A stretch of 64,000 nt of DNA, taken from contig NZ_BONX01000046.1 in the NCBI RefSeq assembly GCF_016862935.1, forward strand, positions 1 through 64,000, written 5' to 3'. How positions within the stretch are numbered: position 1 is the stretch's first letter; every line of letters begins with the position of its first letter. Origin of the DNA: Plantactinospora mayteni (lineage in GTDB: Bacteria > Actinomycetota > Actinomycetes > Mycobacteriales > Micromonosporaceae). The position numbers and the translations under genes were made by a program. The notes under the pieces were generated by a model. That model did no database searches, had not been told where the DNA came from, and saw only the letters and a list, made by a program, of their open reading frames with translations. This document shows positions 5,144 to 39,113 of this stretch, in pieces.

Positions 5144-6157
5144 CTACTCCGTGCCGTCCGCCGGCAGGTGCTCCGGCAGCCCGAGCCGCGGGAACTGGTC
5201 GTCGTGGAAGGTGACGATCTCGGTGATCGCCCCGCCGGTGACGCGCAGGACGTCGATCGTCAGCGGCAGGTACGCGCCCTCCTGCTCCCGCCAGTGGTAG
5301 AAGGCGACGGCGGGCTGGCGGTTCACGGAGGTGGGGATGCCGCGCAGGTTCTTCATGCTCGGGAAGCCGCTCTCGACCCAGTCGTTCACCACCGCGTCGC
5401 GGCCGACGTGCAGGCCCGGCGTGGGCGGCATCGAGCACCGGACGTCGTCCCGCAGCATTGCGGCGAGCCGGTCGACGTCCGTGGCCACGCAGGCCTCGGT
5501 GAAGCGGCGTACCAGCTCGCGCGTCCCGGCGTCCTCCTCGCCGCCGGTCCAGTCCTGCCGCTCGGCGGGCAGGTGCTCCCGCATGCCGGCGCGGGCCCGC
5601 TGTAGCGCGCTGTTCACGGAGTTGACGGAGTCCCCGAGGAGCTCCGCGACGTCCTTCGCCGGCCAGCCGAGCACGTCCCGCAGGATCAGCACGGCCCGCG
5701 GGCGCGGCGCGAGGTGCTGGACGGCGACCAGGTACGCCAGCTCGATCGTCTCCCGCGCGACGGCGACGGTCTCCGGCTCGTCCGCGTGGCCCGCGGGCAG
5801 CTCGTCCAGCAGCCGGTCCGGGTAGGGCTGCAACCACAGCACCTCGCCGCCGGTCGCAGGCTCCGGGCGGCACTTGGCGAGCAGGTCCAGGCAGGCGTTG
5901 GTGGCGATCCGGTACAGCCAGGCCCGGAACGTCGACCGCCCCTCGAAGGTTTCCCGCCGCCGCCAGGCACGAAGGAACGTCTCCTGTACGGTGTCCTCGG
6001 CGTCCTCGAACGACCCGAGCATCCGGTAGCAGTGCACGTGCAGTTCCCGCCGGTGCCGCTCCGCCAGCCCCGAGAACGCCGGCTCGTCGACCTCGCCCAG
6101 CCCGCTCCCGCCCAGCCCGCTCATGCCCAGCTCCTCCAGCCGCATTTCCACACCCAT
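5144..6157 (-). CDS. ECF sigma factor with C-terminal SnoaL-like domain (SigG-like)
   Basis: 337 aa. Region 2 (HCYRMLGSFEDAEDTVQETF) and the Trp-rich segment FRAWLYRIATNACLDLL bind the -10 element and core polymerase. Region 4 (PRPRAVLILRDVLGWPAKDV) carries the helix-turn-helix for the -35. From about residue 205 a SnoaL/NTF2-like domain follows, as in SigG/SigJ-type ECF factors, where the extension controls activity in place of a classical anti-sigma factor. ATG 6157 is chosen because GAAGGA is 7 nt upstream. It is the first gene of an operon with the cupin and DUF6069 genes; no anti-sigma gene is adjacent. Confidence 0.88.
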   Translation of the reverse strand: MGVEMRLEELGMSGLGGSGLGEVDEPAFSGLAERHRRELHVHCYRMLGSFEDAEDTVQETFLRAWRRRETFEGRSTFRAWLYRIATNACLDLLAKCRPEPATGGEVLWLQPYPDRLLDELPAGHADEPETVAVARETIELAYLVAVQHLAPRPRAVLILRDVLGWPAKDVAELLGDSVNSVNSALQRARAGMREHLPAERQDWTGGEEDAGTRELVRRFTEACVATDVDRLAAMLRDDVRCSMPPTPGLHVGRDAVVNDWVESGFPSMKNLRGIPTSVNRQPAVAFYHWREQEGAYLPLTIDVLRVTGGAITEIVTFHDDQFPRLGLPEHLPADGTE

Positions 6158-6395
6158 GACGTCATCCTTCCGGCTCGTCGTGTCCTGTCGTAGGTATGAC
6201 GGGTGCGGGCGCGACAACTCATCACCAGGGTCGGTCGGCATGGAGGATCCAGGCTTGATCTTGGCGCCGAGCACCGACTCACCCGGGAGATGGCCGGCAA
6301 TCACGGCTTGCGGGCCCGGCCCGAGTGGGAGGCTCGTCCAGCCGAGGGCTCGTACGGCCGCGTCGGCCGGGAACGGGTCGCGCGCCGGCCGGGGA

Positions 6396-6902
6396 TCAGC
6401 CCGACGCCGGTGGTGCGTCGAAGGCGGAGGCGGAGGCGGGCACCGGGATGGCCGCCGGAGCGAAGACCACGACGCGGATGCCCGGCATCCGGTCGGCCGC
6501 CCGCTCGATCAGCGGCCGGACGTCGCTCCACCGGAGGCCACCGTTGCCGCAGCCCAGTGCCGGGACGGCGACGGAGCCGACGGCACGCTCGGCGACCACC
6601 TCGACCAGCGAATCGAGCCCGGCCGCGATGTCCGGCAGCCGGGAGCGGCTGCGCCAGTGCCGCTTGGTCGGAAAGTTGATGATGTATCGCCGAGGGCCGG
6701 GTACGGCGTTGTCGTGGACCCAGACCGTCCCGATCCGAAGCGCGTCGCTGGCGCAGGCCGCACGGTAGGCGGCGAAGTTTGCCGGATAGGCCCGCTTGAA
6801 CGCCAGCGCGAGGCCCTTGCCCATCACGCCGACCGTGTTGACCGCGTTGACCAGGGCATCGACATTGGCGGCGAGCAGGTCGCCGCGCCCCTCTTCGATC
6901 AT
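6396..6902 (-). CDS. DarG-like macrodomain protein
   Basis: 168 aa, essentially one macrodomain. Diagnostic segments are ALVNAVNTVGVMGKGLA, RYIINFPTKRHWR and PALGCGNGGLRW. These match the macrodomain of DarG, the antitoxin that removes ADP-ribose from thymidine in DNA. The Lys in FPTKRHWR corresponds to the catalytic Lys of the DarG/TARG1 class (family knowledge). The DarG C-terminal region and a DarT transferase gene are absent nearby. ATG 6902 has AGAGG upstream. It is transcribed away from the HhH-GPD repair gene at 7036. It may reverse ADP-ribosylation of DNA or protein; the substrate is an inference. Confidence 0.82.
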   Translation of the reverse strand: MIEEGRGDLLAANVDALVNAVNTVGVMGKGLALAFKRAYPANFAAYRAACASDALRIGTVWVHDNAVPGPRRYIINFPTKRHWRSRSRLPDIAAGLDSLVEVVAERAVGSVAVPALGCGNGGLRWSDVRPLIERAADRMPGIRVVVFAPAAIPVPASASAFDAPPASG

Positions 6903-7035
6903 CTCCGCACCTCTCGCCCGGTAACGGTGTCTAACAGCCCGGTCCGACGATTTCTCGGCTCCGGTACCCCGCCGACCGGCCGTACCCGTCCGGGGGCGTT
7001 CTCTCGGTGCCGGAATGAGCAGGCAAGATAGCCGC

Positions 7036-7614
7036 ATGACGCTCTCGCTGCCCATCGACGCCGAAGCGAACGAACTGCTCCGGCGTGACCCGCTGGCACT
7101 GCTGATCGGCATGGTCCTGGACCAGCAGGTCAGCATGGAGAAGGCATTCGCCGGCCCGTACGAGTTGGTGAAGCGGCTCGGCCACCCGCCGGACGCGGCC
7201 GAGTTGGCCGCCTTCGATCCGGAGGCGCTGACAGTGATCTTCGCCGAGCGCCCCGCCCTGCACCGGTTTCCCAAGGCGATGGCCGGCCGGGTGCAGGAGG
7301 TGTGCCGGACCCTCGTCGAGCGGTACGACGGTGACCCGAGCCGGCTCTGGTCGGAGGCCGAGGACGGCCGCGAGCTGCTGAAGCGGATCACCGGGTTGCC
7401 CGGGTTCGGCAAGCAGAAGGGGCAGATCTTCCTCGCCCTGCTCGGCAAGCGCTTCGGTGTCCAGCCGCCCGGCTGGCGCGAGGCGGCCGGCGACTACGGC
7501 GTCGACGGTGCCCACTACTCGGTCGCCGACGTGGTGGACGAGACGTCGCTGGCCAAGGTACGCCAGCACAAGCAGCAGATGAAGGCCGCCGCCAAGGCTG
7601 CCGCACCCAGCTGA
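7036..7614 (+). CDS. HhH-GPD base-excision repair family protein
   Basis: 192 aa. It belongs to the small actinobacterial HhH-GPD group (opening DPLALLIGMVLDQQVSMEKAF). The helix-hairpin-helix is ITGLPGFGKQKGQIFLALLG at about residues 118-137. Relatives are DNA glycosylase-fold proteins, but the glycosylase Lys/Asp pair is not obvious, so catalytic activity is unproven. ATG 7036 matches the usual family start; ATG 7015 would add seven residues. It is divergent from the macrodomain gene across a 133-bp shared promoter region. A hairpin at 7668-7692 follows. Confidence 0.8.
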   Translation: MTLSLPIDAEANELLRRDPLALLIGMVLDQQVSMEKAFAGPYELVKRLGHPPDAAELAAFDPEALTVIFAERPALHRFPKAMAGRVQEVCRTLVERYDGDPSRLWSEAEDGRELLKRITGLPGFGKQKGQIFLALLGKRFGVQPPGWREAAGDYGVDGAHYSVADVVDETSLAKVRQHKQQMKAAAKAAAPS

Positions 7615-26788: not shown

Positions 26789-27118
26789 GGCAAGTCCTTC
26801 CGGGTCACCGCGGGACCGACCCGTCCGGTGGGGTGATGTCACCATGAGCGTAGCCATCCGGCCCCCCACCCGTGCCGCCCGACCTCCCCGCGTCGCGGGA
26901 TCTCCGGCAGGGAAGGGGTCGACGAAGGCGCTGTCCCGGCTGCGGTGCCCCTCGTAGCGGCGTCCTGCCGGTCGTACCGCGATCTCCGCACGGCCCGGAC
27001 CGACCCGGAACTCCTGGTCCGGTGACCCGTCGCCCCGGCCGTCGTGTTAGCCGGCTCACCGGGAAGATCGGCCGCACCGGCCGGCCGGGCGAATCCGGCA
27101 CCCGTACCCTTAGCGGTT
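26789..27118. other. 330-bp divergent region between RCK and KimA-like genes
   Basis: It holds the ceoB promoter near 26847-26852 and a -10 (TACCCT, 27105-27110) 8 nt before the kimA-like GTG. Because that mRNA would be nearly leaderless, there is no room for a c-di-AMP riboswitch of the kind that precedes Bacillus kimA. The middle of the gap shows nothing I recognise. Confidence 0.5.
26832..26852 (-). promoter_or_regulatory. -10 box and palindromic operator candidate for ceoB-ceoC
   Basis: On the minus strand TACGCT (26852-26847) fits a -10. Downstream at the expected start of transcription is GGTGACATCACC (26843-26832), 5-bp arms around a 2-bp centre, a possible repressor site. Confidence 0.4.
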
Positions 27119-29242
27119 GTGGCCAGTCCCACCTCGTTAGTCAAGCGCCTGCTGCTGGGCCGACCGTTCCGGTCCGACAAGTTGCAGCACACCCTGCTGC
27201 CGAAGCGCATCGCGCTGCCGGTGTTCGCCTCCGACGCGCTCTCCAGCGTGGCGTACGCCCCGGACGAGATCCTGCTGACGCTGTCGATCGCCGGCGCCTC
27301 GGCGTACCTCTTCTCGCCGTGGGTCGCGCTGGCCGTCGTGGTGGTGATGCTCACCGTGGTGGCGAGCTACCGGCAGAACGTGCACGCCTACCCCTCCGGC
27401 GGCGGCGACTACGAGGTGGCCACGGTCAACCTCGGGCCGAAGTTCGGCGTCGGGGTGGCCAGCGCGCTGCTGGTCGACTACGTGCTGACCGTCGCGGTCT
27501 CGGTCTCCTCCGGGGTGGCCAACCTCGGGTCGGTGCTGCCGTTCGTCTCCGAGCACCGGGTCGGGGTCGCGGTGACCGCGGTGGTCGTGCTGACCGCGAT
27601 CAACCTGCGCGGGCTGCGGGAGTCGGGCACCGCGTTCGCGATCCCGACCTACGGCTTCATGATCGTCATCATCGGGATGATCCTCACCGGGCTGGTCCGG
27701 GTCTTCGTCCTCGGCCACGACCTCCGGGCGCCGAGCGCCGACCTGGTGGTCAGCGCCGAGCACGCCAACCTGACCGCCTTCGCGATGGCCTTCCTGCTGC
27801 TCCGGGCCTTCTCCTCCGGCTGCGCCGCGCTGACCGGGGTGGAGGCGATCTCCAACGGCGTACCCGCGTTCAAGCCGCCGAAGAGCCGCAACGCCGCCAC
27901 CACGCTGTTGCTGCTCGGCTCGGTGGCGATCGTGATGATCATGGGAATCATCTGGCTGTCCCGGCTGACCGGCCTCCAGTTCATGGAGGACCCGGTCCGG
28001 CAGCTCGAACACGGCCCGGCCGGCTACGTGCAGAAGACCGTGACCGTGCAGCTCGGCGAGGCGATCTTCGGCAACGGGGTGCTGCTCTTCGTGGTGGCCG
28101 GCGCGACCGCGCTGATCCTCTTCCTGGCCGCCAACACCGCGTTCAACGGCTTCCCGGTGCTCGGCTCGATCCTGGCCCAGGACCGCTACCTGCCCCGGCA
28201 ACTGCACACCCGGGGCGACCGGCTGGCGTTCTCCAACGGCATCGTCTTCCTCGCGGTCACCGCGATCCTGCTGATCGTCGCCTTCCAGGCCGAGGTGACC
28301 CGGCTGATCCAGCTCTACATCGTCGGCGTCTTCGTCTCGTTCACGCTCTCCCAGGCCGGGATGATCCGGCACTGGAACCGGCTGCTGCGTACCGAGCGGG
28401 ATCCGGTGGTGCGGCGCCGCATGATCCGGTCCCGGGCCATCAACGCCTTCGGGATGGGCCTGACCGGGGCGGTACTGGTGGTCGTCCTGATCACCAAGTT
28501 CCTGCTCGGCGCCTGGATCGCCATTGCCGCGATGGCGGTGATCTACGCCATGATGCTCGGCATCCGCCGGCACTACGACCGGATCGCCGCCGAGCTGACC
28601 CCGGCCGAGGGGCGTCCGGTGCTGCCGGCCCGCAACCACGCGATCGTGCTGGTCAGCAAGGTGCACCAGCCGACCCTGCGGGCGGTCGCCTACGCCCAGG
28701 CGACCCGGCCGGACACCCTGACCGCGCTGACCGTGAACGTCGACGAGGCGGACACCCGGGCGGTGCAGGCGGAGTGGGAACGGCACGGGGTGACCGTCCC
28801 GCTGACCGTGATCGACTCGCCGTACCGGGAGATCACCCGGCCGATCCTCGACTTCGTCGCGTCGGCCCGCCGGGAGTCGCCGCGCGACGTGGTCACGGTC
28901 TTCATCCCGGAGTACGTCGTCGGGCACTGGTGGGAGAACCTGCTGCACAACCAGAGCGCGCTGCGGATCAAGGGTCGACTGCTCTTCGAGCCCGGGGTGA
29001 TGGTGACCAGCGTGCCGTGGCAGCTCGCCTCGACCGCCCGGAAGAACCTGGACCGGTTCGACGCCACGCTCAGTCGCGGACCGGCCCGGGGGCCGCGCGG
29101 CGGTGCCACCGTCGGCGGGCTGCTCGGGCCGCGCCCGCCGTCGAACACCGCCGCCGCGCCGGCACCGCCGCCCCCGCTGACCGGTACCGACCTGGACGAG
29201 CCCCCGCCCGGCCCCGGCCGCGACACCGCCGGTCCCCGATGA
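27119..29242 (+). CDS. kimA: KimA-like high-affinity potassium importer (APC superfamily)
   Basis: 707 aa. About twelve transmembrane helices (residues 30-470) and a roughly 200-residue cytosolic C-terminal domain with an alpha/beta, USP-like character. Residues that form the K+ sites in Bacillus KimA are recognisable: Asp and Tyr in ASDALSSVAYA, Asp-Tyr in LLVDYVLTVAVS, and Thr/Glu in ALTGVEAISN. The remainder (AANTAFNGFPVLGS, RGDRLAFSNGI) follows KimA closely. KimA imports K+ with protons and in firmicutes is inhibited by c-di-AMP. GTG 27119 lies 8 nt after TACCCT, so the mRNA is nearly leaderless. It is divergent from two RCK genes, and its stop overlaps the methyltransferase ATG. Commonly labelled only APC or amino-acid permease. 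Confidence 0.85.
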   Translation: MASPTSLVKRLLLGRPFRSDKLQHTLLPKRIALPVFASDALSSVAYAPDEILLTLSIAGASAYLFSPWVALAVVVVMLTVVASYRQNVHAYPSGGGDYEVATVNLGPKFGVGVASALLVDYVLTVAVSVSSGVANLGSVLPFVSEHRVGVAVTAVVVLTAINLRGLRESGTAFAIPTYGFMIVIIGMILTGLVRVFVLGHDLRAPSADLVVSAEHANLTAFAMAFLLLRAFSSGCAALTGVEAISNGVPAFKPPKSRNAATTLLLLGSVAIVMIMGIIWLSRLTGLQFMEDPVRQLEHGPAGYVQKTVTVQLGEAIFGNGVLLFVVAGATALILFLAANTAFNGFPVLGSILAQDRYLPRQLHTRGDRLAFSNGIVFLAVTAILLIVAFQAEVTRLIQLYIVGVFVSFTLSQAGMIRHWNRLLRTERDPVVRRRMIRSRAINAFGMGLTGAVLVVVLITKFLLGAWIAIAAMAVIYAMMLGIRRHYDRIAAELTPAEGRPVLPARNHAIVLVSKVHQPTLRAVAYAQATRPDTLTALTVNVDEADTRAVQAEWERHGVTVPLTVIDSPYREITRPILDFVASARRESPRDVVTVFIPEYVVGHWWENLLHNQSALRIKGRLLFEPGVMVTSVPWQLASTARKNLDRFDATLSRGPARGPRGGATVGGLLGPRPPSNTAAAPAPPPPLTGTDLDEPPPGPGRDTAGPR

Positions 29243-30732
29243 GCATCGGCGAGCGGTCCCGGGTGTCCGGGGCAGGTCCGGGCGAGGCAGAGCGGGTCGA
29301 GTTGACCGTCGGCCCGGTGGCGCACGGCGGGCACTGCGTGGCCCGGCTGGACGGGCAGGTGGTCTTCGTCCGGCACGCGCTGCCGGGTGAGCGGGTGGTC
29401 GCCGAGATCACCGAGGTACGCCGGGACTTCCTGCGGGCGGACGCGGTGACCGTACTCGACGCCTCGCCGGACCGGGTCGTCCCGCCGTGCCCCTGGGCGG
29501 GGCCGGACCGGTGCGGCGGCTGCGACCTCCAGCACGTGGCACCGGCGGCACAGCGACACTGGAAGGCCGAGGTGGTAGTCGAGCAGCTACGCCGGCTGGC
29601 CGGACTGACCCCGGAGGAGATCACCGAGTTGGACGTCCGGGTCGACGAGCTACCCGGCGGCCCGCTCGGCTGGCGCTCCCGGGTCCGGTACGCGGTGGAC
29701 GCCGCCGGCCGGGCCGGACTTCTCAAGCACCGGTCGCACGAGGTGGTCCCGATCGACCGGTGCCGGATCGCCCGCCCGGCGATCCAGGAACTGCCGGTAC
29801 TGGCACCCAGCGGTCGGCGCTGGCCCGACGCCGACCTGGTGGAGGTGGTCGCCTCCTCGGCCGGCGACCTGACCGTACGTGAGCGGCGTGCCACGGGCGT
29901 ATCCGTCGGCGGCGACCTGGGCGACATCGCCGTTCCTTCCGTCGGCGTTCCGCCTGCTGGCGGCCTGCCCGTCGCCGTTCCGCACTCCGGTGGCCCGGTC
30001 GGTGGCGGTGCCGACCCGATGGAGGGCGCCTCCGGCCAGGGTGCGGGCGGCCCGGCCGGCGACGGTGCCGCTGGGCTGGGTCAGGGCGCTGGGCTGGGTC
30101 AGGGCGCTGGCGGGCCGGGGCACCGGTCGGAGCGGGCGGTCGGGAACGGTACGGCGGGGCGGGTCCGGGAGGTGGCGGTCGGCCGGACGTGGCGGCTGCC
30201 GCCGGAGGCGTTCTGGCAGGTACATCCGGCGGCGGCGGAGACGCTGGCGGCGGCCGTACTCGATCTGCTGGCGCCGCGGCCCGGCGAGTCCGCCTGGGAT
30301 CTCTACGGCGGTGCCGGGCTGTTCGCGGCGGCGCTGGCCGACCGGGTCGGTCCGGCCGGCCGGATCACCCTGGTCGAGTCGGCCGAGCCGGCGGTCGAGG
30401 CCGCCCGGGACAACCTGGGCGACCTGCCGCAGATCGAGGTGGTCCGGGCGTCGGTCGGCCCGGCGCTGCGCCGCCGCCGGATCGTCGGACCGGTCGACCT
30501 GGTGGTGCTGGACCCGCCACGCGCCGGAGCCGGTGCCGAGGTGGTCCGGGCGGTCGCCGCGGCCACCACCCGGGCGGTGGCCTACGTGGCCTGCGACCCG
30601 GCCGCCTTCGCCCGGGACGCCCGGACGTTCCGGGAGGCGGGCTGGCGGCTCGCCGCACTGCGCGGCTACGACCTCTTCCCGATGACCCAGCACGTGGAAC
30701 TGGTGGCGCTGCTGCTGCCCGCCGAGGACTGA
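29239..30732 (+). CDS. TRAM-domain class I SAM-dependent RNA methyltransferase (TrmA/RlmD-like)
   Basis: 497 aa. An N-terminal TRAM RNA-binding domain (residues about 15-80) is followed by an iron-sulfur cysteine cluster (CPWAGPDRCGGC plus DRCRIARP), then the methyltransferase fold with WDLYGGAGLFAAAL, DLVVLDPPRAG and the catalytic-loop AYVACDPAAF. It should methylate the C5 of a uridine in rRNA or tRNA; the site is not predictable. An insert of about 85 residues (from ERRATGVSVGGDLGDIA to GNGTAGRVREVAV) is Gly/Pro-rich with GLGQGA repeats and is unusual. ATG overlaps the kimA stop (ATGA). Confidence 0.88.
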   Translation: MSIGERSRVSGAGPGEAERVELTVGPVAHGGHCVARLDGQVVFVRHALPGERVVAEITEVRRDFLRADAVTVLDASPDRVVPPCPWAGPDRCGGCDLQHVAPAAQRHWKAEVVVEQLRRLAGLTPEEITELDVRVDELPGGPLGWRSRVRYAVDAAGRAGLLKHRSHEVVPIDRCRIARPAIQELPVLAPSGRRWPDADLVEVVASSAGDLTVRERRATGVSVGGDLGDIAVPSVGVPPAGGLPVAVPHSGGPVGGGADPMEGASGQGAGGPAGDGAAGLGQGAGLGQGAGGPGHRSERAVGNGTAGRVREVAVGRTWRLPPEAFWQVHPAAAETLAAAVLDLLAPRPGESAWDLYGGAGLFAAALADRVGPAGRITLVESAEPAVEAARDNLGDLPQIEVVRASVGPALRRRRIVGPVDLVVLDPPRAGAGAEVVRAVAAATTRAVAYVACDPAAFARDARTFREAGWRLAALRGYDLFPMTQHVELVALLLPAED

Positions 30733-30740
30733 GCCCGCCC

Positions 30741-30853
30741 GGCGGCGGAGGGCTTGAGCCGGAGGGCGGCGGAGGGCTGAGTCCGGCCGGCGGCGGCGGA
30801 GGGCTGAGTCCGGCCGGCGGCGGCGGAGGGCTGAGTCCGGCCGGCGGCGGAGG
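30741..30853. repeat. 27-bp tandem repeat after the methyltransferase stop
   Basis: Copies of GGCGGAGGGCTGAGTCCGG recur with a 27-bp period (GGCTGA at 30775, 30802, 30829) and a degenerate copy at 30741. The unit resembles the true stop context at 30724-30740 (GAGGACTGAGCCCG), so the stop region itself appears to have been duplicated. Confidence 0.8.
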
Positions 30854-30884
30854 TCGACACCCGGAGTGGAGTCGACCTCCGCCG
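30845..30884. terminator. Strong bidirectional terminator
   Basis: A perfect 14-bp stem (CGGCGGAGGTCGAC with its complement, 30845-30858 and 30871-30884) and a 12-nt loop separate the convergent methyltransferase and RNA-ligase genes. Confidence 0.85.
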
Positions 30885-30888
30885 CTGC

Positions 30889-30998
30889 CTCAGCGGCCGG
30901 TGCGCCCGCGCCTCAGCGGCCGATGTGGCTGCGCCCAGCGGCCGGTGTGCCCGCGCCTCAGCGGCCGGTGTGCCCGCGCCTCAGCGGCCGGTACGGCG
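30889..30998. repeat. 23-bp tandem repeat spanning the RNA-ligase stop
   Basis: CTCAGCGGCCGGTG-type units begin at 30889, 30912, 30934, 30957 and 30980. The last contains the real stop (TCA, 30981-30983) of the minus-strand ligase; the other four are downstream duplicates, three of them retaining the stop triplet. Confidence 0.85.
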
Positions 30999-32837
30999 GC
31001 GCTTCAGGGTCCGCTCGTAGTCCTGGAACCGCGCCTTCGCGATCGCCGACCGGGTCTCCGAGCGCAGCACGATGCCCTCGGCCCGGCCCGGCGTACCGTC
31101 CAGGGCCACCGTCGTCGCCGGCAGGAGCTCGGCGAGGAGTCGGTGGGTCTTCTCCAGGTCGGTCGGCAGCTCGGCGGCGTCGACCGTGCCGAGCCGGGGC
31201 ACCGTCGGCAGCCCGGCTGCCTCGGCCCGGGCCAGCAGCTCCGGCTCGGCGAGGAACGGCTGACCCGCCGACTCCCGCCAGGACGAGATCCGCTCGACCG
31301 GCCAGTCCAGCAGCTCGGCGTAGTCGTCCAGCACGACCACGTCGAAGAGCCGGGCACCCACCGTACGGGAGTCGGTGTAGTGCTTCGACGCGGCGGTCAC
31401 CTTGCCGCCGTAGACCTCCAGGTAGTGCACCACGATCGCGTCCCGGTCGACCGGGGGCAGCCGGTCGGCGATCGGGCGGAGCGCCTCGACGATGCCGAGC
31501 GCCGGGTTGCCGATCAGGTCGCCCCGGGCGTAGAGCAGCTCCTCGCGGCTGCCGATCAGGTAACTGCCGTCCGGCAGCGAGACGATCCGACCGTTGGAGT
31601 TATGGACGAGAACGCCGTTGGCGAAGAAGTTGTGGGTGCCCGTCTCGATGTCGCGGCGGGTCGAGCGGACGCCTTCGACGTCGAATTCGATCTCCTCGAT
31701 CACCTGGTTCACGATCGGAGGCTTGAACCGCATCCCGGCCGGTGGAAGCCACCCTTCGTGCCCACGGTACCGTTCCGGCAGCTTTCGCTGCATCGCCGGC
31801 GGCACATAGGGTGCGACGAGGAGAAACAGCCGCTCGGCGGCGGTGACGTTGAGGCGGATGGTCAGATACCCGCGGCCGTCACGCATCAGCTCACCGTTGA
31901 CGCCGAGTCGTGCGAGGCCCCGTAGCAGCACCGCGCAGTCGCGCTCGTTGAAGCCATTCGTCGAGAAGGTCGCCCGATCTTCCTGGTCCGGGCTGGTCAT
32001 CAGCGAGCCATCGTCCATGTACCAGAATGCCAGGGCGATCGGGTCGAGTGCGTCAGCCACCCACTCGGGCACGCGCTTCTCACCCGAGTCGGTCATGTCG
32101 CCAAAGTGCTCTGTGATGCACGGGTGGAACGTGGACCGGCCGGACACAATTGTGCTGCCGTAGCCGCTGGTGAGGTTGCGTACGGCTTCGCTCGCAAGAT
32201 CACCAATGGCCCGTTGGGTCCAGGCCACGTACTCCGCATCGGGTTGGCGATGGCCCCACACAACCGCCGAGCTACCTGATGCGGCGCGATGGAGGTGGCC
32301 GTCGCCGAGCAGTTTGCCGAGCAACACCGAAAATTGGCACGGAGAGAGGTCGAGTTCACTCCGTAGGAGGGACACTTCGTCACCGACGCTCATCTTTTCA
32401 GCCGGAATGTACTCGCTTCGATCCGGTGACCAGAACCGGTGATTCGGCGTACAGGTGACCGAGAAGAACGCGCTTCCCCGCCCCGCCCCAAGCCGGCGAC
32501 CCTTGATCCTCATCCACGTCTCGGCCTTGCCGTTGTTGAAGGTCTGGAGTATCGGGGTGGCTATCACCGAGCCGCTTTCGTCGACGCCCAGGACCTCGTC
32601 GCCGGCGCGGAGGGAGCCGAGAATCCTACGGGTGCCGTCAGCCATCGAGATTCGTGTCGTATACGGCAGGCAGCCGTCGACTTTCTCGGTCAGCAGGACC
32701 CGGCCAGCGAAGGCGACGGTCTCGTCGAGCAGCCCACCGTTGCGCGGGTCGAGCGAGTGATAGGTCGGGATGGGCGGGTATTTCGTCAGCGAGTTGACGG
32801 CCGTCAGGTTCGCCGTACGGACGTTGAAGTCGGACAT
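30981..32837 (-). CDS. RNA ligase interrupted by an in-frame intein
   Basis: 618 aa precursor; about 260 aa after splicing. The exteins form an ATP-dependent RNA ligase of the T4 Rnl/RNA_ligase superfamily. Motif I is KVDG (Lys52) joined to SNGR, motif III VHYLEVYGG, IIIa RLFDVVVLD, motif IV AEGIVLRSE, and motif V AIAKARF. The Lys would carry the AMP during nick or end sealing of RNA. The intein (residues 56-413) separates KVDG from SNGR, so the unspliced protein should be inactive. ATG 32837 has GGGGAGG 4-5 nt upstream; an upstream ATG at 32888 lacks one. No RNA-repair partner gene (kinase/phosphatase, RtcB, Hen1) is adjacent. The physiological RNA target is unknown. Confidence 0.92.
   Translation of the reverse strand: MSDFNVRTANLTAVNSLTKYPPIPTYHSLDPRNGGLLDETVAFAGRVLLTEKVDGCLPYTTRISMADGTRRILGSLRAGDEVLGVDESGSVIATPILQTFNNGKAETWMRIKGRRLGAGRGSAFFSVTCTPNHRFWSPDRSEYIPAEKMSVGDEVSLLRSELDLSPCQFSVLLGKLLGDGHLHRAASGSSAVVWGHRQPDAEYVAWTQRAIGDLASEAVRNLTSGYGSTIVSGRSTFHPCITEHFGDMTDSGEKRVPEWVADALDPIALAFWYMDDGSLMTSPDQEDRATFSTNGFNERDCAVLLRGLARLGVNGELMRDGRGYLTIRLNVTAAERLFLLVAPYVPPAMQRKLPERYRGHEGWLPPAGMRFKPPIVNQVIEEIEFDVEGVRSTRRDIETGTHNFFANGVLVHNSNGRIVSLPDGSYLIGSREELLYARGDLIGNPALGIVEALRPIADRLPPVDRDAIVVHYLEVYGGKVTAASKHYTDSRTVGARLFDVVVLDDYAELLDWPVERISSWRESAGQPFLAEPELLARAEAAGLPTVPRLGTVDAAELPTDLEKTHRLLAELLPATTVALDGTPGRAEGIVLRSETRSAIAKARFQDYERTLKRRRTGR
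31599..32672 (-). mobile_element. Intein with LAGLIDADG homing endonuclease inside the RNA ligase
   Basis: 358 codons. Cys1 starts block A (CLPYTTRISMADGTRRI). Block B is SVTCTPNHRFWSP, with the TxxH of splicing. Two LAGLIDADG motifs are VLLGKLLGDGHLH and ALAFWYMDDGSLM. The C-terminal blocks read THNFFANGVLVHN, ending in His-Asn, and the first extein residue is Ser, so all residues for class 1 protein splicing are present. The homing motifs look intact. Base composition differs from the host: 32341-32400 has 27 A/T of 60, while extein 31081-31140 has 13 of 60. This supports horizontal acquisition. Confidence 0.92.
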
Positions 32838-32956
32838 GCTGCCTCCCCGTGATCTGTGCTGCCATCCACCCATCGGTGGTTCCGGCAACTCTGCGGGATC
32901 CGGGGTGGGCGGGCAACACAGATCCCGGCGTGGAAATCAGGGGATCAGCCGCGGGT

Positions 32957-33208
32957 TCAGGGGGTGGCGTGCAGGGCGGACCGGGGCGGGGTGTGGACCG
33001 CCTCCGTATCCCGGCGGGCGGCCCGGGCGGCGGCCCGGTCGCGGAGCCGGATCCAGGCGATGATCAGCAGAATCAGTGGCAGCAGCGGCAGCGCGATCAG
33101 CAGTACGATGCCGACCGCGAGGAGCTGGCCGGTGGCGTACCGGCCGGATGTCGGGGTGGTTCGGGCACGGCCGGTGGACCGGTCGGGACGGGAGCCAGCA
33201 GGCGACAT
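32957..33208 (-). CDS. Small single-pass membrane protein
   Basis: 83 aa. A disordered, basic N-terminus is followed by a long hydrophobic segment (LLAVGIVLLIALPLLPLILL, about residues 29-52) and an Arg/Ala-rich cytoplasmic tail. No family recognised. ATG 33208 has AAGG 8 nt upstream. It lies between the RNA ligase and dxs, on the ligase strand, and could share its transcript. Probably real because of the clear hydrophobic helix, but this is not certain. Confidence 0.55.
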   Translation of the reverse strand: MSPAGSRPDRSTGRARTTPTSGRYATGQLLAVGIVLLIALPLLPLILLIIAWIRLRDRAAARAARRDTEAVHTPPRSALHATP

Positions 33209-33552
33209 GTCGAGACCTTAGGGGAGGGTCGGGTTACCGGCCATGCTACGGCCGTTGGCGGCATCTGCCCGATTTTTCGTTCGTTCGGCGGAGCCCCTGC
33301 CCGCCACTCGCGGTGCGGAGTCGTCGACTGTCCGCGACGCTTCCGCCGTCCGGTCAACGGGACTCTGCCGATCGCCAACCGCCCGGTACCGGCCGGCGAA
33401 GCGGTTCGCCGGCCGAAGCGCCCGGCATCGGCTACCCGGGCTCGCCGGTTGCCGCACCCAACCGCTTCCGACCCGGACAGCCCGGTGCGATCCGTGGCAC
33501 TGGTTCGGCGGCCCGGCTGCGGGCCGGCCCGGCACCGATAGACTCTGCGGCT
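33209..33552. other. 344-bp gap upstream of dxs
   Basis: It separates the small membrane protein gene (-) from the dxs leader ORF (+). The only element I can support is the TAGACT -10 at 33539-33544. No hairpin or RNA gene was recognised in the rest. Confidence 0.4.
33539..33544 (+). promoter_or_regulatory. -10 box of the dxs leader ORF
   Basis: TAGACT is followed by 8 nt and ATG 33553, which predicts transcription starting at or within 1-2 nt of that ATG. The same hexamer precedes the membrane-protein gene at 37119. Confidence 0.45.
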
Positions 33553-33636
33553 ATGAGCCTGTGTAGGGAGCGAATCAGCCAGCCCAGCGCCGTGCGGCCC
33601 GATACCCCTGCCGAGCGCGGCGAGGTGACGGCATGA
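33553..33636 (+). CDS. Leaderless 27-codon upstream ORF overlapping dxs
   Basis: 27 aa, beginning [14 protein letters not shown] and ending AERGEVTA. It starts 8 nt after a TANNNT box and its TGA overlaps the dxs ATG (ATGA at 33633-33636). The dxs ribosome-binding site (GAGG, 33622-33625) is inside it, so ribosomes finishing this ORF could reinitiate on dxs. The peptide resembles no protein I know. A regulatory uORF or a simple N-terminal leader are both possible. Reality is inferred from promoter spacing and overlap only. Confidence 0.45.
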
Positions 33637-35630
33637 CGGTGGAGGAGCCGGAGACGTCCGCCGGACGGCTGTTGGGCGCGGTCCGTGGGCCGCAGGACGT
33701 CAAGCGGATGTCCGCCGAGGAGCTGGCGTTGCTCGCCGCCGAGATCCGGGACTTCCTGGTCGCGAAGGTGTCCCGGACGGGCGGGCACCTCGGCCCGAAC
33801 CTCGGGGTGGTCGAGCTGACCCTGGCCATGCACCGGGTCTTCGACTCGCCCCGGGACCGCTTCCTGTTCGACACCGGCCACCAGGCGTACGTGCACAAGA
33901 TGCTCACCGGGCGGCAGGAGGGCTTCGACCAGCTCAAGCAGCGCGGTGGCCTGTCGGGTTACCCGAGCCGGGCGGAGAGCGAGCACGACCTGGTCGAGAA
34001 CTCGCACGCCTCGACCGCGCTCTCCTATGCGGACGGGCTGGCCAAGGCATACGCGCTGCGCGGCGAGTCGCGCAACGTCGTGGCGGTGGTCGGCGACGGG
34101 GCGCTGACCGGCGGCATGTGCTGGGAGGCGCTGAACAACATCGCCGCCGCCCGCAACCCGCTGGTCATCGTGGTCAACGACAACGGCCGGTCGTACGCGC
34201 CGACGATCGGCGGCCTGGCCGACCACCTGGCCACGCTGCGGCTCAACCCCGGCTACGAGAAGGTGCTGGACGTCGTCAAGGAGGCGCTCGGCTCCACCCC
34301 GCTGGTCGGCAAGCCGATGTACGAGGTGCTGCACGCGGTCAAGAAGGGCGTCAAGGACGCGGTCGCCCCGCAGGCGATGTTCGAGGACCTCGGCATCAAA
34401 TACCTGGGCCCGGTCGACGGGCACGACGTGGCCGCGATGGAGTCGGCGCTGCGCCGGGCCAAGGGCTTCGGCGGGCCGGTGATCGTGCACGCGGTGACCC
34501 GCAAGGGTCTGGGTTACCGCCCGGCCGAGGAGGACGACGCCGACTGCCTGCACAGCCCGAGCGCCTTCGACGTGGAGACCGGCAAGCTGCTGGCCGCGCC
34601 GTCGGTGAAGTGGACGCAGGTCTTCGCCGACGAGCTGGTCGCGATCGCCGACGAGCGGCCGGACGTGGTCGGCATCACCGCCGCGATGGCCGAGCCGACC
34701 GGGATCGCCGCGCTGGCCCGGAAATACCCGAATCGGGTCTACGACGTCGGCATCGCCGAGCAGCACGCGGCCACCTCGGCCGCCGGCCTGGCCATGGGCG
34801 GCCTGCACCCGGTGGTGGCCGTCTACGCGACCTTCCTGAACCGCGCCTTCGACCAGGTGCTGCTCGACGTCGCGATGCACAAGCTCCCGGTGACGTTCGT
34901 GCTGGACCGGGCCGGGATCACCGGCCCGGACGGGCCGAGCCACTACGGCATCTGGGACATGTCCGTCTTCGGGGTGGTGCCCGGGCTGCGGATCGCCGCC
35001 CCCCGGGACGCCGCGACCCTGCGGGCGGAGCTGCGCGAGGCGGTCGCCGTGGAGGACGGGCCGACCATCCTGCGCTTCCCGACCGGTTCCGTCGTCGCCG
35101 ACCTGCCGGCGGTGCGCCGGATCACCGCCACCGACTCGGTCTCCGGCGGCGTGGACGTACTCGCCGAATCTGCCCGTACCGACGTCCTGCTGGTCGCGGT
35201 CGGTGCGTTCGGGAAGCTCGGCGTCGAGGTGGCCGCCCGGGTCGCCGAGCAGGGCTACGGCGTGACGGTGGTGGACCCGCGCTGGGTCCGGCCGGTCCCG
35301 CCGGAGCTGGTCACGCTGGCCGGCAGCCACCGGCTGGTGGTCACCGTCGAGGACGGCGTACGCGCCGGTGGGGTCGGTGACGCGCTGGCCAAGGCGCTGC
35401 GCGACGCCGACCTGCGGGTGCCGGTACGCGACCTCGGCGTGCCACCGGTCTGGCAGCCGCACGGCACCCGGGCGCAGATCCTCGCCGACCTGGGACTGAC
35501 CGCGCAGGACGTGGCCAGGGACGTCACCGGCTGGGTCTCCCAGCTCGACGACGAGCCGATCGCCCCAGTCCAGGTAACCACCACCCCCCACACCGCCCAA
35601 ACAGCCAAGGGCCGCAACGGCCGCGCCTAA
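33633..35630 (+). CDS. dxs: 1-Deoxy-D-xylulose-5-phosphate synthase
   Basis: 665 aa. The thiamine-diphosphate enzyme that condenses pyruvate and glyceraldehyde 3-phosphate, first step of the MEP isoprenoid pathway. Key elements: [17 protein letters not shown], the ThDP motif [16 protein letters not shown], the catalytic Glu of [15 protein letters not shown], and the pyrimidine-binding region up to [13 protein letters not shown]-terminal transketolase domain is complete. The last 30 residues are a loose tail. ATG 33633 has GAGG 7 nt upstream. Translation may be coupled to the preceding short ORF. Confidence 0.96.
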
Positions 35631-35655
35631 CCCCCCGAAGATCCTGCTATTTACC

Positions 35656-35696
35656 TGATGTAGTGGCCTCACACCGAGGATGAGGCCACTACATCA
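35656..35696. terminator. Bidirectional terminator after dxs
   Basis: A perfect 15-bp inverted repeat (TGATGTAGTGGCCTC with its complement) and an 11-nt loop lie 25 bp past dxs and 41 bp past the convergent lipoprotein gene. Confidence 0.9.
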
Positions 35697-35737
35697 CTGG
35701 AACAGCGCGATCGTGCGGGCCCCGCGGTGGGGGAGTT

Positions 35738-36928
35738 TCAGTTGCCGCCGGCGGAGCGGGTGGTGGTCTTGTCGAGGGCGATCAGGTTGAACGTCTCGCG
35801 GGTGGCCGGATTCGGCACCACGACCAGGCCGGGCCGGTCGACCAGGCGGGTCGTGTTCGGCGGCAGCGCGAGGCTGGTATCCGGGCTCGGCTGCCAGACC
35901 AGCACCACGACGGGGCTGGAGAGCGGCAGGACGTACACCTGGAGCGGCTCGAGCCGGTCGGCGGCCGAGACCACCGGCGGACCCTCGGCGGGCCGGAGCA
36001 GGGCGGCCGTCATCATGCCCTCGTCGGTACGCCAGCTCATCTGTTCGAGCTTGGCCGGCTGCTCCCCGGCGCCGACCAGCTCGACCTCGGCCAGCGACTT
36101 CGTCGACACCCGGTCGATCGGCCAGGAGACCGGCACCGAACCGGGATGGGCCTCGCCGTGCACCCGGTGCGGGATGCTGCCGAACGGACCGGTCTTGGTG
36201 CCGAGGGCGCAGGTGTCGAGGTTGTTCAGCACGGAGGCGCCGGAGCCGGTGTCGTCGCCGACCAGCGGATAGCGCGGCCCCTCGATACCGGTGCCGAGGT
36301 CGACGAGCCGGTCGGCCGCCTTGCCACTCGGCAGCGACTCGCTGGGGCGCAGCCGGGCGGTGACGGTGCGGGCGGCGCAGGCCGGCACTGCGACCGGGCC
36401 GGTCAGGCCGTCGGTGACCGCCAGCGGCCGGCGGTCCGAGCCGAGCAGCCGGTCCACCCGGGCGGAGACCAGATAGCGCCGGCCGGTGGGCAACTGCACC
36501 GGCAGCACGTCGGAGTAGACCAGGTAGCCGGGGTCGGTGTATTCGACCGCCCGGTCGACCGTGAACTCCGTTCCGTCGCCGGTCAACTGCAAGAGCCAGG
36601 AGCCCGCCTCGCCGGGCACGTCGGCGGCGACCAGCGCGAGTCGGCCGCCGTCGACCTCGCCGAGCCAGAGGATGCCGGAGGAGGGCAGGTGCGCCCGGTC
36701 CTCGACCGGGGTGCGCCACGCGTCGACGGCCCGGGCCACCGCCGCGGTCGCTTGTGGATCACCGGCCAGAGCACCCCGGGAGGGCCACACCTGGAGCGTA
36801 CCGTCCAGGGTGTCGTAGCCGACCCGGAGCGCGATCGGAGGTTCCTTCGGGACGGCGCCGCACCCGCCGGTGAGGAGGGCCAGCGTGAGGGCCGCGCCGA
36901 CGATCCCGCTACGAGGGAGTGAACCCAC
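35738..36928 (-). CDS. Putative secreted lipoprotein of unknown function
   Basis: 396 aa. A signal peptide (GIVGAALTLALLTGG) ends at a plausible lipobox Cys (LLTGGC, about residue 21), so the protein should be lipid-anchored outside the membrane. The exported domain has several beta-rich stretches (GTLQVWPSRGALAG, GYLVYSDVLPVQLPTGRRY) and two cysteines (PACAARTV, LDTCALGTK). No family recognised. GTG 36928 has GGGAG 7 nt upstream; earlier in-frame starts would precede the signal peptide by many Arg/Pro-rich residues. It is divergent from the polytopic protein at 37119. Confidence 0.72.
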   Translation of the reverse strand: MGSLPRSGIVGAALTLALLTGGCGAVPKEPPIALRVGYDTLDGTLQVWPSRGALAGDPQATAAVARAVDAWRTPVEDRAHLPSSGILWLGEVDGGRLALVAADVPGEAGSWLLQLTGDGTEFTVDRAVEYTDPGYLVYSDVLPVQLPTGRRYLVSARVDRLLGSDRRPLAVTDGLTGPVAVPACAARTVTARLRPSESLPSGKAADRLVDLGTGIEGPRYPLVGDDTGSGASVLNNLDTCALGTKTGPFGSIPHRVHGEAHPGSVPVSWPIDRVSTKSLAEVELVGAGEQPAKLEQMSWRTDEGMMTAALLRPAEGPPVVSAADRLEPLQVYVLPLSSPVVVLVWQPSPDTSLALPPNTTRLVDRPGLVVVPNPATRETFNLIALDKTTTRSAGGN

Positions 36929-37118
36929 CGCTGTGCTCCCGATCCGCCTCAGTCGTCTACAGATGCCACATCCTACGAGATCTCGGACGCGGCTCGGGCG
37001 GGACCCGGGAAAGCCCGGCCGATCGGGGACCGCCGGCCCGACGACACGACCCGCCCTGCGGAAACCAGCCGCCCAGGCAACTGGGACCAATGGGGTACTC
37101 CTGTAGACTCCGCCGACT

Positions 37119-39113
37119 GTGACGCTTGCCCAGCCACGCCTGCACAACAGCACGCCGGATCCGGAGGGCCCCGAGTCAGGAAGCCGTACGGCGACCGGAA
37201 CCGACGGGGGCGCGGCGGAGCCGGCGGGTTCGGGCGCCGGTTCCGAGACCGGCTCGGAAACCGCGTCGGCGGCGCCCGCCGACCGGGAGCCGGCGCCGCG
37301 TTCCGACGACACCGGCGAGGACTCGGGTACCCCGGACCGGAACACCGGCCAGCCGGCCACCCGGCCGGCCCGCTGGCCCACCTGGCGGCGTGACCTCGCC
37401 GTCTACGCGGCCTTCCTGGTCGCCGGCTTCTGGGTGACCAGCCAGATCTGGCTCGACCCGGCCGGTCGGGTCGCCTCGCTCTACAGCAGCGACCCCGCGC
37501 AGGTGCAATACTTCCTCGCCCACTCCGTACGGGTGGTGCTGCACGGCGAGTTCCCGTTCTTCACCGACCGGTTGAACTATCCTGACGGCGTCAACCTGAT
37601 GGCCAACACGGCGATCCTGGGGCTGGGCATCCCGATGGTGCCGATCACGCTGCTGTTCGGCCCGGCGGTGTCCTTCGTGGTGCTGGTGACGCTCGGCCTG
37701 GCCGGCACCGCCTCCGCGTGGTACTACGTGATCTCCCGGCACCTGGTCAGCGCGCCGATCGCGGCGATCGCCGGCGGCTGGTTCTGCGGCTTCTCCCCGG
37801 CGCTGCTGTCACACGCCAACTGGCACCCCAACATCATCTCGCAGTTCCTGCTGCCGTTCATCGTCTGGCGGGTCCTGGTGCTGACCCGCTCCACCCGGCC
37901 GCTCCGGGACGGCGTCATCCTCGCGCTGCTGGTCACCTACCAGGCGTTCATCAACGAGGAGATCCTGCTCTTCACCGCGATGGCCTGCGGGGTCTTCCTG
38001 CTCGCGGTACTGGTGCAGGAGCCGGCCCGGTGGAGGGCGGCGTGGCGCCCGCTCGGCGCCGGCATCGCGGTCTGCGCCGTACTCGCCGGGGCGCTGCTGG
38101 CGTACCCGCTGATCGTGCAGTTCGCGGGCCGGCAGGCGTACCACGGGCTCAGCGACGCGGTCCGGGACTACGGCAACGACCTGGCGGCGTTCTTCGCACC
38201 CGGCTCCGCCACGCTCGGCGGCAACCAGCGGGCCAATCTCGACCTCGCCCCGAACTATTCCGAGGAGAACGCCTTCTTCGGCTGGAGCCTGGCGCTGCTG
38301 ACCGTGGCGATCGTGGTCTGGCTCCGCCGCGAGGTGCTGATCCGGGCGCTCGCGGTGACCGGCCTGCTCTTCGCGATCCTCTCGCTCGGCGAGCGGATCT
38401 CCTGGTGGAACCGGGGCGCCTTCTGGGGGCCGTGGGACATCCTGGTCCGGGCCCCGCTGCTCGACGCGGTGGTGCCGACCCGGTTCGGCCTGATTACCAC
38501 AGTGGTGATCGGGCTGCTACTCGCGCTCGCCACCGACCGGGCCTGGAAACTGGAGATCGCCGACCGGCGCACGCTGCGTACCGTGGTGGTGGCCGTGCTG
38601 GCGATCGCGCTGGTGCCGATCCTGCCGCTGCCGCTGCGCGAGGTGAGCCGGCCGCCGGTGCCGCACTTCATCACCTCGGGCCAGTGGCGGCCGTACGTCG
38701 GTCCTGACCAGACGCTGGTGCCGGTGCCGATCCCCGCGATGGGGCACACCCACGGGATGCGCTGGGCCGCCGCCACCAACCTCGACTTCAAGATGCCGGG
38801 CGGCTACTTCCTGGCTCCCCGGAACGGGAACACCGGCGACGCCGGCCGGTTCGGCGGGCGGCCCAGCGGGCTCAGCGCGGTACTCGACCGGGTCGCCACC
38901 AGCGGCCAGCCCGCGACGCTGACCGACCGGCAGCGCCGGCGGGCCCTGGACGAGTTGCGACACTGGCAGGCCGCGATCCTGGTGCTGCCGGTGCGGCAGG
39001 ACAACGTGGAGGCGCTGCGCAGCACCGTCGACCAGCTCGCCGGCCCGGCCCGGCGTACCGCCGACGTGTGGGTGTGGGACGTCCGCGCCCTGACCAGCCG
39101 CACGGCTGGGTGA
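37119..39113 (+). CDS. Large polytopic membrane protein, paralogue A (GT-C-like)
   Basis: 664 aa. A disordered 90-residue N-terminus precedes about eleven transmembrane helices. The first extracytoplasmic loop includes SSDPAQVQYFLAHS and NYPDGVNLMANTAILGLG, followed by WFCGFSPALLSHAN. The exported C-terminal part ends VWVWDVRALTS. The topology and an acidic first loop are reminiscent of GT-C glycosyltransferases that use lipid-linked sugars, but no named family is clear. It shares these landmarks with the proteins at 39110 and 41178. GTG 37119 is 9 nt after TAGACT, so the mRNA is nearly leaderless. The stop overlaps the next gene (GTGA). Confidence 0.75.
   Translation: MTLAQPRLHNSTPDPEGPESGSRTATGTDGGAAEPAGSGAGSETGSETASAAPADREPAPRSDDTGEDSGTPDRNTGQPATRPARWPTWRRDLAVYAAFLVAGFWVTSQIWLDPAGRVASLYSSDPAQVQYFLAHSVRVVLHGEFPFFTDRLNYPDGVNLMANTAILGLGIPMVPITLLFGPAVSFVVLVTLGLAGTASAWYYVISRHLVSAPIAAIAGGWFCGFSPALLSHANWHPNIISQFLLPFIVWRVLVLTRSTRPLRDGVILALLVTYQAFINEEILLFTAMACGVFLLAVLVQEPARWRAAWRPLGAGIAVCAVLAGALLAYPLIVQFAGRQAYHGLSDAVRDYGNDLAAFFAPGSATLGGNQRANLDLAPNYSEENAFFGWSLALLTVAIVVWLRREVLIRALAVTGLLFAILSLGERISWWNRGAFWGPWDILVRAPLLDAVVPTRFGLITTVVIGLLLALATDRAWKLEIADRRTLRTVVVAVLAIALVPILPLPLREVSRPPVPHFITSGQWRPYVGPDQTLVPVPIPAMGHTHGMRWAAATNLDFKMPGGYFLAPRNGNTGDAGRFGGRPSGLSAVLDRVATSGQPATLTDRQRRRALDELRHWQAAILVLPVRQDNVEALRSTVDQLAGPARRTADVWVWDVRALTSRTAG

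Follow-up and report, generated by a model that had tools for sequence, protein, structure and literature searches.

A probable mobile intein interrupts motif I of an Rnl2-like RNA ligase gene in Plantactinospora mayteni

In a 64,000-nucleotide stretch of the Plantactinospora mayteni genome (contig NZ_BONX01000046.1, positions 1 to 64,000, hereafter the window), we identified a gene for a predicted Rnl2-like RNA ligase whose adenylation motif, motif I, is split by an intein. The insert is very probably a class 1 intein, mobile by means of its LAGLIDADG endonuclease, and a selfish element instead of a regulator of the ligase. We read its borders, its splicing residues, the intein-free alleles of the gene and the relatives at the same site from sequence, and infer from these splicing, DNA cutting, ligase activity and selfishness.

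An intein splits the adenylation motif of the ligase

The gene lies on the minus strand of the window, as do all features given below, at positions 30981..32837. It encodes 618 residues from an ATG start, and a Shine-Dalgarno-like GGGGAGG (32842..32848), read from the sequence, is found four bases 5' of the ATG. The protein divides into an N-extein of 55 residues ending in TEKVDG (32673..32837), an intein of 358 residues (31599..32672) and a C-extein of 205 residues starting with SNGR (30981..31598). KVDG (32673..32684) forms the first half of motif I, and the borders read KVDG/C and HN/SNGR. Frame, borders and coordinates thus agree with the initial annotation of this stretch, which had proposed an intein at exactly this place.

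The splicing and endonuclease motifs listed in that annotation are likewise all in the sequence: Cys1 (codon TGC, 32670..32672), the block B motif TPNH of the TxxH type (intein residues 75-78, 32439..32450), the LAGLIDADG motifs LLGKLLGDG (32298..32324) and FWYMDDGS (32004..32027), the terminal His-Asn (31599..31604) and the +1 Ser (codon TCC, 31596..31598). C1, T75, H78, H347, H357, N358 and the +1 Ser are all retained. With Cys1, TxxH, His-Asn followed by Ser, two LAGLIDADG motifs carrying acidic residues, and intein-free alleles, the insert has the features of a class 1 intein.

HMMER searches of the 618-residue protein yielded scores above the cut-off for LAGLIDADG_2 (PF03161, 70.2 bits), for the intein C-terminus model TIGR01443 (25.0 bits, cut-off 15.6) and for RNA_ligase (PF09414, 36.9 bits, cut-off 27), the last as the initial annotation had predicted. 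We therefore do not regard the insert as a chance resemblance. Two generic intein models matched in the right region below their cut-offs, PF14890 (Intein_splicing, 19.7 bits, cut-off 35.8) and PF01079 (Hint, 21.4 bits, cut-off 29.7), these cut-offs being recognition thresholds and not a property of inteins; the intein protein of Catenuloplanes japonicus passes PF01079 and PF05203. In PADLOC, the window protein matched homing-endonuclease models only, and an intein-free ligase matched none.

The initial annotation also described the intein as richer in A/T than the exteins. This holds against the C-extein (GC content 63.8% versus 73.0%) and hardly against the N-extein (64.8%). We rejected AT-richness, as stated, as a sign of foreign origin, since the N-extein is about equally AT-rich and so is the N-terminal part in ten intein-free relatives (63.6-68.5% GC). 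Third-position GC separates the parts better, with 78.8 in the intein versus 89.1 and 95.1 in the exteins. The same genome also holds a RecA intein (locus L002, 1504-2607), 34% identical to the ligase intein, and, elsewhere, a Hint-like stretch within an open frame of 2285 residues (L003; 31% identity over about 95 residues).

The joined exteins form a predicted Rnl2-like RNA ligase

Judged by profile and motifs, the joined exteins, 260 residues in all, are an Rnl2-like RNA ligase of family PF09414. Two intein-free relatives score 48.2 and 52.7 bits against this model. The joined protein carries EKVDG from residue 51, LEVYGG at 115, LFDV at 139, RAEGIV at 227 and IAKARF at 241, the last four in the C-extein, and the corresponding motif columns are kept in an alignment with 16 intein-free relatives. 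K52 of the N-extein is, we presume from established knowledge of the family, the lysine that becomes adenylated; the motif numbers used here likewise follow what is known of the family. A nucleotidyltransferase fold near that of T4 Rnl2 was found. NCBIfam RNA-ligase models, including the Rnl2 equivalog TIGR02307, gave no match for the window protein (E<=1) or for the proteins of L006 and L035 (E<=0.01), and a search of solved structures with the ligase sequence profile gave one weak, unrelated match only (E 0.73).

We propose that the intein, inserted exactly between KVDG and SNGR, would excise after translation through an acyl shift at Cys1, transfer to the +1 Ser and cyclisation of the terminal Asn. 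The products would be a ligase of 260 residues and a free endonuclease of 358 residues, which would cut intein-free motif I DNA and so drive copying of the intein into it. From what motif I does in such enzymes, we expect the precursor to be inactive before splicing.

Intein-bearing, intein-free and truncated alleles in the genus and family

Our genus sample comprised seven genomes including P. mayteni itself, and the intein-bearing ligase occurs in one of the seven. The intein-free alleles that the initial annotation had suggested looking for in relatives exist: four of the six congeners (G113, G092, G058 and G104) carry an intein-free ligase at the same locus. In P. mayteni and these four, the ligase lies between a gene for an RlmD-like methyltransferase and dxs; an amino-acid permease gene precedes in three of the four, and the contig of G104 ends before that place. 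G104 has a second, distant intein-free copy elsewhere (L077) with Cys at +1 (KVDGCNGR). The locus of G032 retains a stub of the last ~60 ligase residues (L090, 7674-7850), and the sixth congener, G078, gave no ligase match. Because of this stub and this missing match, the ligase looks dispensable in the genus. A genome of another genus than G032, G693, also holds just the last ~60 residues (L131, 6518856-6519041).

In a sample of 300 genomes of the family, with up to four candidates scored per genome, the full intein-bearing ligase was found in P. mayteni and C. japonicus (G006) only. In the ligase tree, P. mayteni groups with its four congeners (support 100/98; branch 0.03) and C. japonicus with two intein-free congeners of its own (97/99). 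The +1 residue is Ser (TCC) in both filled genes, and Thr in 27, Ser in one and Cys in one of 29 intein-free ligases. Ten intein-free ligases from viral contigs have Thr (7), Ser (1), Val (1) or Ala (1) there.

Several results weigh against a mobile, splicing intein. In a structure model of the precursor, the junction residues had a predicted local distance difference test score (pLDDT) below 50, and the predicted template modeling score (pTM) was 0.46. Binned identities gave no sign of a broad co-conversion tract flanking the insertion, and only the +1 codon differs as expected. Between P. mayteni and C. japonicus, the inteins differ more at synonymous sites (pS ~0.6) than the ligases do (0.42), and for this reason a recent direct transfer of the intein between the two lineages is not supported, though third-position GC bias may also contribute to the contrast.

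Two further features were observed around the gene. GC-rich tandem repeats with periods of 27, 45 and 23 lie 3' of the ligase stop and overlap the last ligase codons (window 30724-31007). A minus-strand frame of 83 residues (window 32957-33208) has no Pfam match and is >90% identical at three congener loci.

Motif I is a recurrent insertion site

The site is not unique to P. mayteni. A scan of genome contigs gave seven loci: motif I inteins in C. japonicus and in a Pseudobutyrivibrio metagenome-assembled genome, two relicts to which we return later, a RecA intein, and two loci that match in part and lie outside ligases. Sixteen plasmid records matched, but only in that of Miltoncostaea oceani does the match cover the intein; this plasmid has a junction directly after KxDG or KxHG, and such junctions were also read in two of six matching mycobacteriophage records, five of which are named RNA ligase and one HNH endonuclease.

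In a first viral scan (20 loci), one of 12 junctions read lay at the motif I site. A wider viral scan gave 53 loci, 26 of which were read. Ten are at the motif I site, although four of these have an identical junction and one contig was already in the first scan; two lie one residue later (KMDGE/C), three at a motif III-like place (GEW-G/S, one by its C-terminal junction only), and 11 have other flanks. Pfam found the ligase in eight of nine proteins scanned from this wider set, the exception being L145, at a contig end. All members of a separate set of eight proteins including that of Pseudaeromonas phage KLEP7 match PF09414, KLEP7 just below the cut-off (26.4 versus 27). In L061, L150, L151 and L154, the intein of a PF09414-like ligase occupies a second site, the motif III-like place after GEW-G (Pfam run on L061 and L151).

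The full-length intein tree, whose branches are long, joins the P. mayteni clade to L040, L060 and L062 (100/99) and separates it from RecA, KLEP7 and L036; the deeper splits of an endonuclease-only tree were weakly supported. In a phylum sample of 396 genomes, 32 had a match at E<=1e-30, P. mayteni being the best. Twenty-four of these loci were read; 23 had a C-terminal junction, all RecA-like, and one had no junction.

These junctions make motif I of PF09414 RNA ligases a recurrent intein target in bacteria, a plasmid and phages, and the insertions strike where the enzyme is most conserved. The initial annotation knew of no intein described at this site. Inteins at the same position are already in public records, whereas a search of open-licence papers (including PMC3706429, PMC5050341, PMC9957025, PMC6669764, PMC5259590, PMC3322345, PMC11437467 and PMC8966425) yielded no description of one in motif I of a PF09414 ligase. 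The main text of the 2016 survey of mycobacteriophage inteins (PMC5050341) has no word starting with "ligase"; the survey does report 23 inteins residing in a "nucleotidyltransferase" that cluster C1 phages encode.

Two relict intein frames appear to have outlasted the ligase

Actinoplanes couchii (G225, L033 5950-7107) and Nocardiopsis sinuspersici (G688, L034 ~5962-7086) carry intein open reading frames (ORFs) 64-70% identical to the P. mayteni intein. The ligase profile gave no match in either genome at E<=0.001, and at the same threshold neither relict matched a Pfam splicing-domain model or an NCBIfam intein-terminus model. The A. couchii ORF has Gly at position 1, Arg for the block F His and Asp for the last Asn; the N. 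sinuspersici ORF has the same three changes (C1G, H347R and N358D) and has also lost TPN of TPNH. Both ORFs keep both LAGLIDADG motifs, and against LAGLIDADG_2 they score 73.3 and 79.2 bits, at least as high as the P. mayteni protein.

The place taken by the A. couchii ORF holds an intact ligase in G249, a genome of the same genus. The two genomes share the adjoining lamin-tail-domain gene and two more genes, and the luciferase-like and FMN-reductase genes of the opposite side are inverted relative to G249. Compared with 18 ligase loci, the relict shares genes on both sides with G249, two genes next to the ligase, both on one side, with G029 and G201, and none in the stretch compared with the other 15. 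The region of the A. couchii ATG shows homology to the start of the G249 ligase (DNA score 51, where the best of 100 shuffles reached 32), as does the DNA following the relict to the DNA following that ligase (40, best shuffle 31). The ends of the ORF, MAGFDACEVDSSALEG and SGARAAEGTVA, resemble ligase stretches, by eye the N-terminus and motif IV (13 and 2 of 2000 shuffles were equally good).

The N. sinuspersici ORF is flanked by cydC and a CysZ/EI24 gene. The search of its genus covered 39 other genomes; four of them carry an intact ligase, in each case between these two genes; one more has the ligase in two frames and one has a stub, both elsewhere or without these neighbors in the stretch compared. 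Directly behind the relict, the DNA runs on as it does in G702 (score 507 versus 35), and upstream of the relict ligase DNA was not found (22 versus a maximum of 25 in 100 shuffles). From this homology and gene order we conclude that the ligase gene has, on the sequence evidence, eroded around the intein in both genomes. Two close relatives of the P. mayteni intein thus seem to have outlived both splicing ability and the host gene. A search for further close relatives at E<=1e-45 gave one of 67 genomes in the genus of A. couchii, namely A. couchii itself, and none of 343 in the genus of G317, the latter search having had no positive control and being uninformative.

The initial annotation had suggested that splicing may act as an on/off switch for RNA sealing. 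Under such an account the ligase would stay off until stress or redox state permits splicing, so that the intein times RNA sealing, and an interrupted adenylation motif, which is expected to leave the precursor inactive, would suit it. We found nothing that points to regulation and consider a switch very improbable: just one of seven genus genomes has the intein, the ligase is a stub or unmatched in two of the seven, and intein ORFs persist without a ligase in two genomes. Regulatory elements were sought in Rfam only, which gave no match at gathering score in 27000-38000 of the window.

It is similarly hard to believe that the P. mayteni intein is dying and no longer splices, leaving its ligase as dead as in two relatives. 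The two relicts at ligase loci have indeed lost splicing residues, but the P. mayteni intein retains its own, its C-extein is in frame to the end, and the joined extein sits on its short branch among the congeners. An assembly artefact or chimera, conceivable in a draft genome of 123 contigs, is the least credible explanation by far, since the insert is in frame deep within a contig of 103,686 bases, has neighbors on both sides that are conserved in congeners, and recurs with the same architecture in an independent genome.

The splicing part appears to decay first in one relict

The filled, empty and collapsed alleles of this one gene provide a natural set for following the fate of an intein in a dispensable gene, and for asking whether splicing or the endonuclease is first to decay. 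With borders between the splicing and endonuclease parts set by eye from profile matches (105 and 313), the splicing part of N. sinuspersici is identical to that of P. mayteni at 67/149 positions, compared with 91/149 between P. mayteni and C. japonicus (Fisher P = 0.007). For the endonuclease part the values are 163/209 and 152/209 (P = 0.26). With C. japonicus as reference, N. sinuspersici has 40 unique changes in the splicing part versus 14 in P. mayteni (P = 0.0005), and 15 versus 14 in the endonuclease part (P = 1.0). These counts indicate that in N. sinuspersici the splicing part is released from constraint and the endonuclease part is not. As the homing-cycle model has the endonuclease decay first (PMC8966425), this relict suggests that the splicing part can decay first, in the reverse of the usual order. 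A. couchii showed no specific relaxation of the splicing part (22 versus 11 and 23 versus 12 unique changes, P = 0.08 and 0.09), and preferential loss of catalytic residues in the relicts was not significant (hypergeometric 0.23 and 0.15).

In the splicing part, seven sites group the two relicts, versus five and three for the alternative groupings. The relicts, which belong to different orders, have in common five striking states that the functional pair, P. mayteni and C. japonicus, lacks (C1G, D98Q, E99R, H347R and N358D); D98Q and E99R each require at least two base changes. These shared states may point to one splice-dead ancestor as opposed to two independent deaths. We tentatively raise the idea, which we hold to be rather unlikely as it stands, that a splice-dead branch of the intein turned into a homing endonuclease standing on its own, which settles at ligase loci and persists there even when the ligase is lost. 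One dead ancestor would have moved between genomes by homing and ruined the gene it targeted, leaving only the endonuclease under selection. The yeast HO endonuclease is a known precedent for a stand-alone endonuclease derived from an intein. Against this idea, the endonuclease part does not group the relicts (one site, versus four and three for the alternatives), the trees give no resolved grouping of the two, and A. couchii lacks the special relaxation of its splicing part. Moreover, the loss of C1 in both may simply reflect its position at the edge of a deletion.

Comparison with known systems

The nearest known system is the intein in the PF09414 ligase of C. japonicus (L004 = L035), which belongs to the same subfamily, sits at the same site (KVDG/C...HN/SN) and is 67-68% identical to the P. 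mayteni intein. It differs in its genus, in the ligase (~62% identical) and in its length of 360 residues. Omegavirus mycobacteriophages (KashFlow and Phoebus) encode an "RNA ligase" with an intein directly after K-L-H-G, and its match to the window protein spans residues 47-422 of the latter at ~31% identity; these ligases are longer (extein of ~440 residues), and the KashFlow and Phoebus records annotate no intein. The "intein-containing RNA ligase" of phage KLEP7 (UNY40322.1) has an annotated intein, a LAGLIDADG_2 domain and a PF09414-like ligase, but its intein lies at another site, after GEWAG in a motif III-like place. The actinobacterial RecA intein, present in this genome too (L002) and 34% identical over the intein, occupies another host gene and site, and is separate in the full-length tree and not resolved in the endonuclease-only tree. 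Finally, the P. mayteni intein shares with the homing-cycle model, as set out in PMC8966425, gain by homing, patchy distribution and decay, while the N. sinuspersici relict appears to reverse the order in which that model lets the endonuclease decay first.
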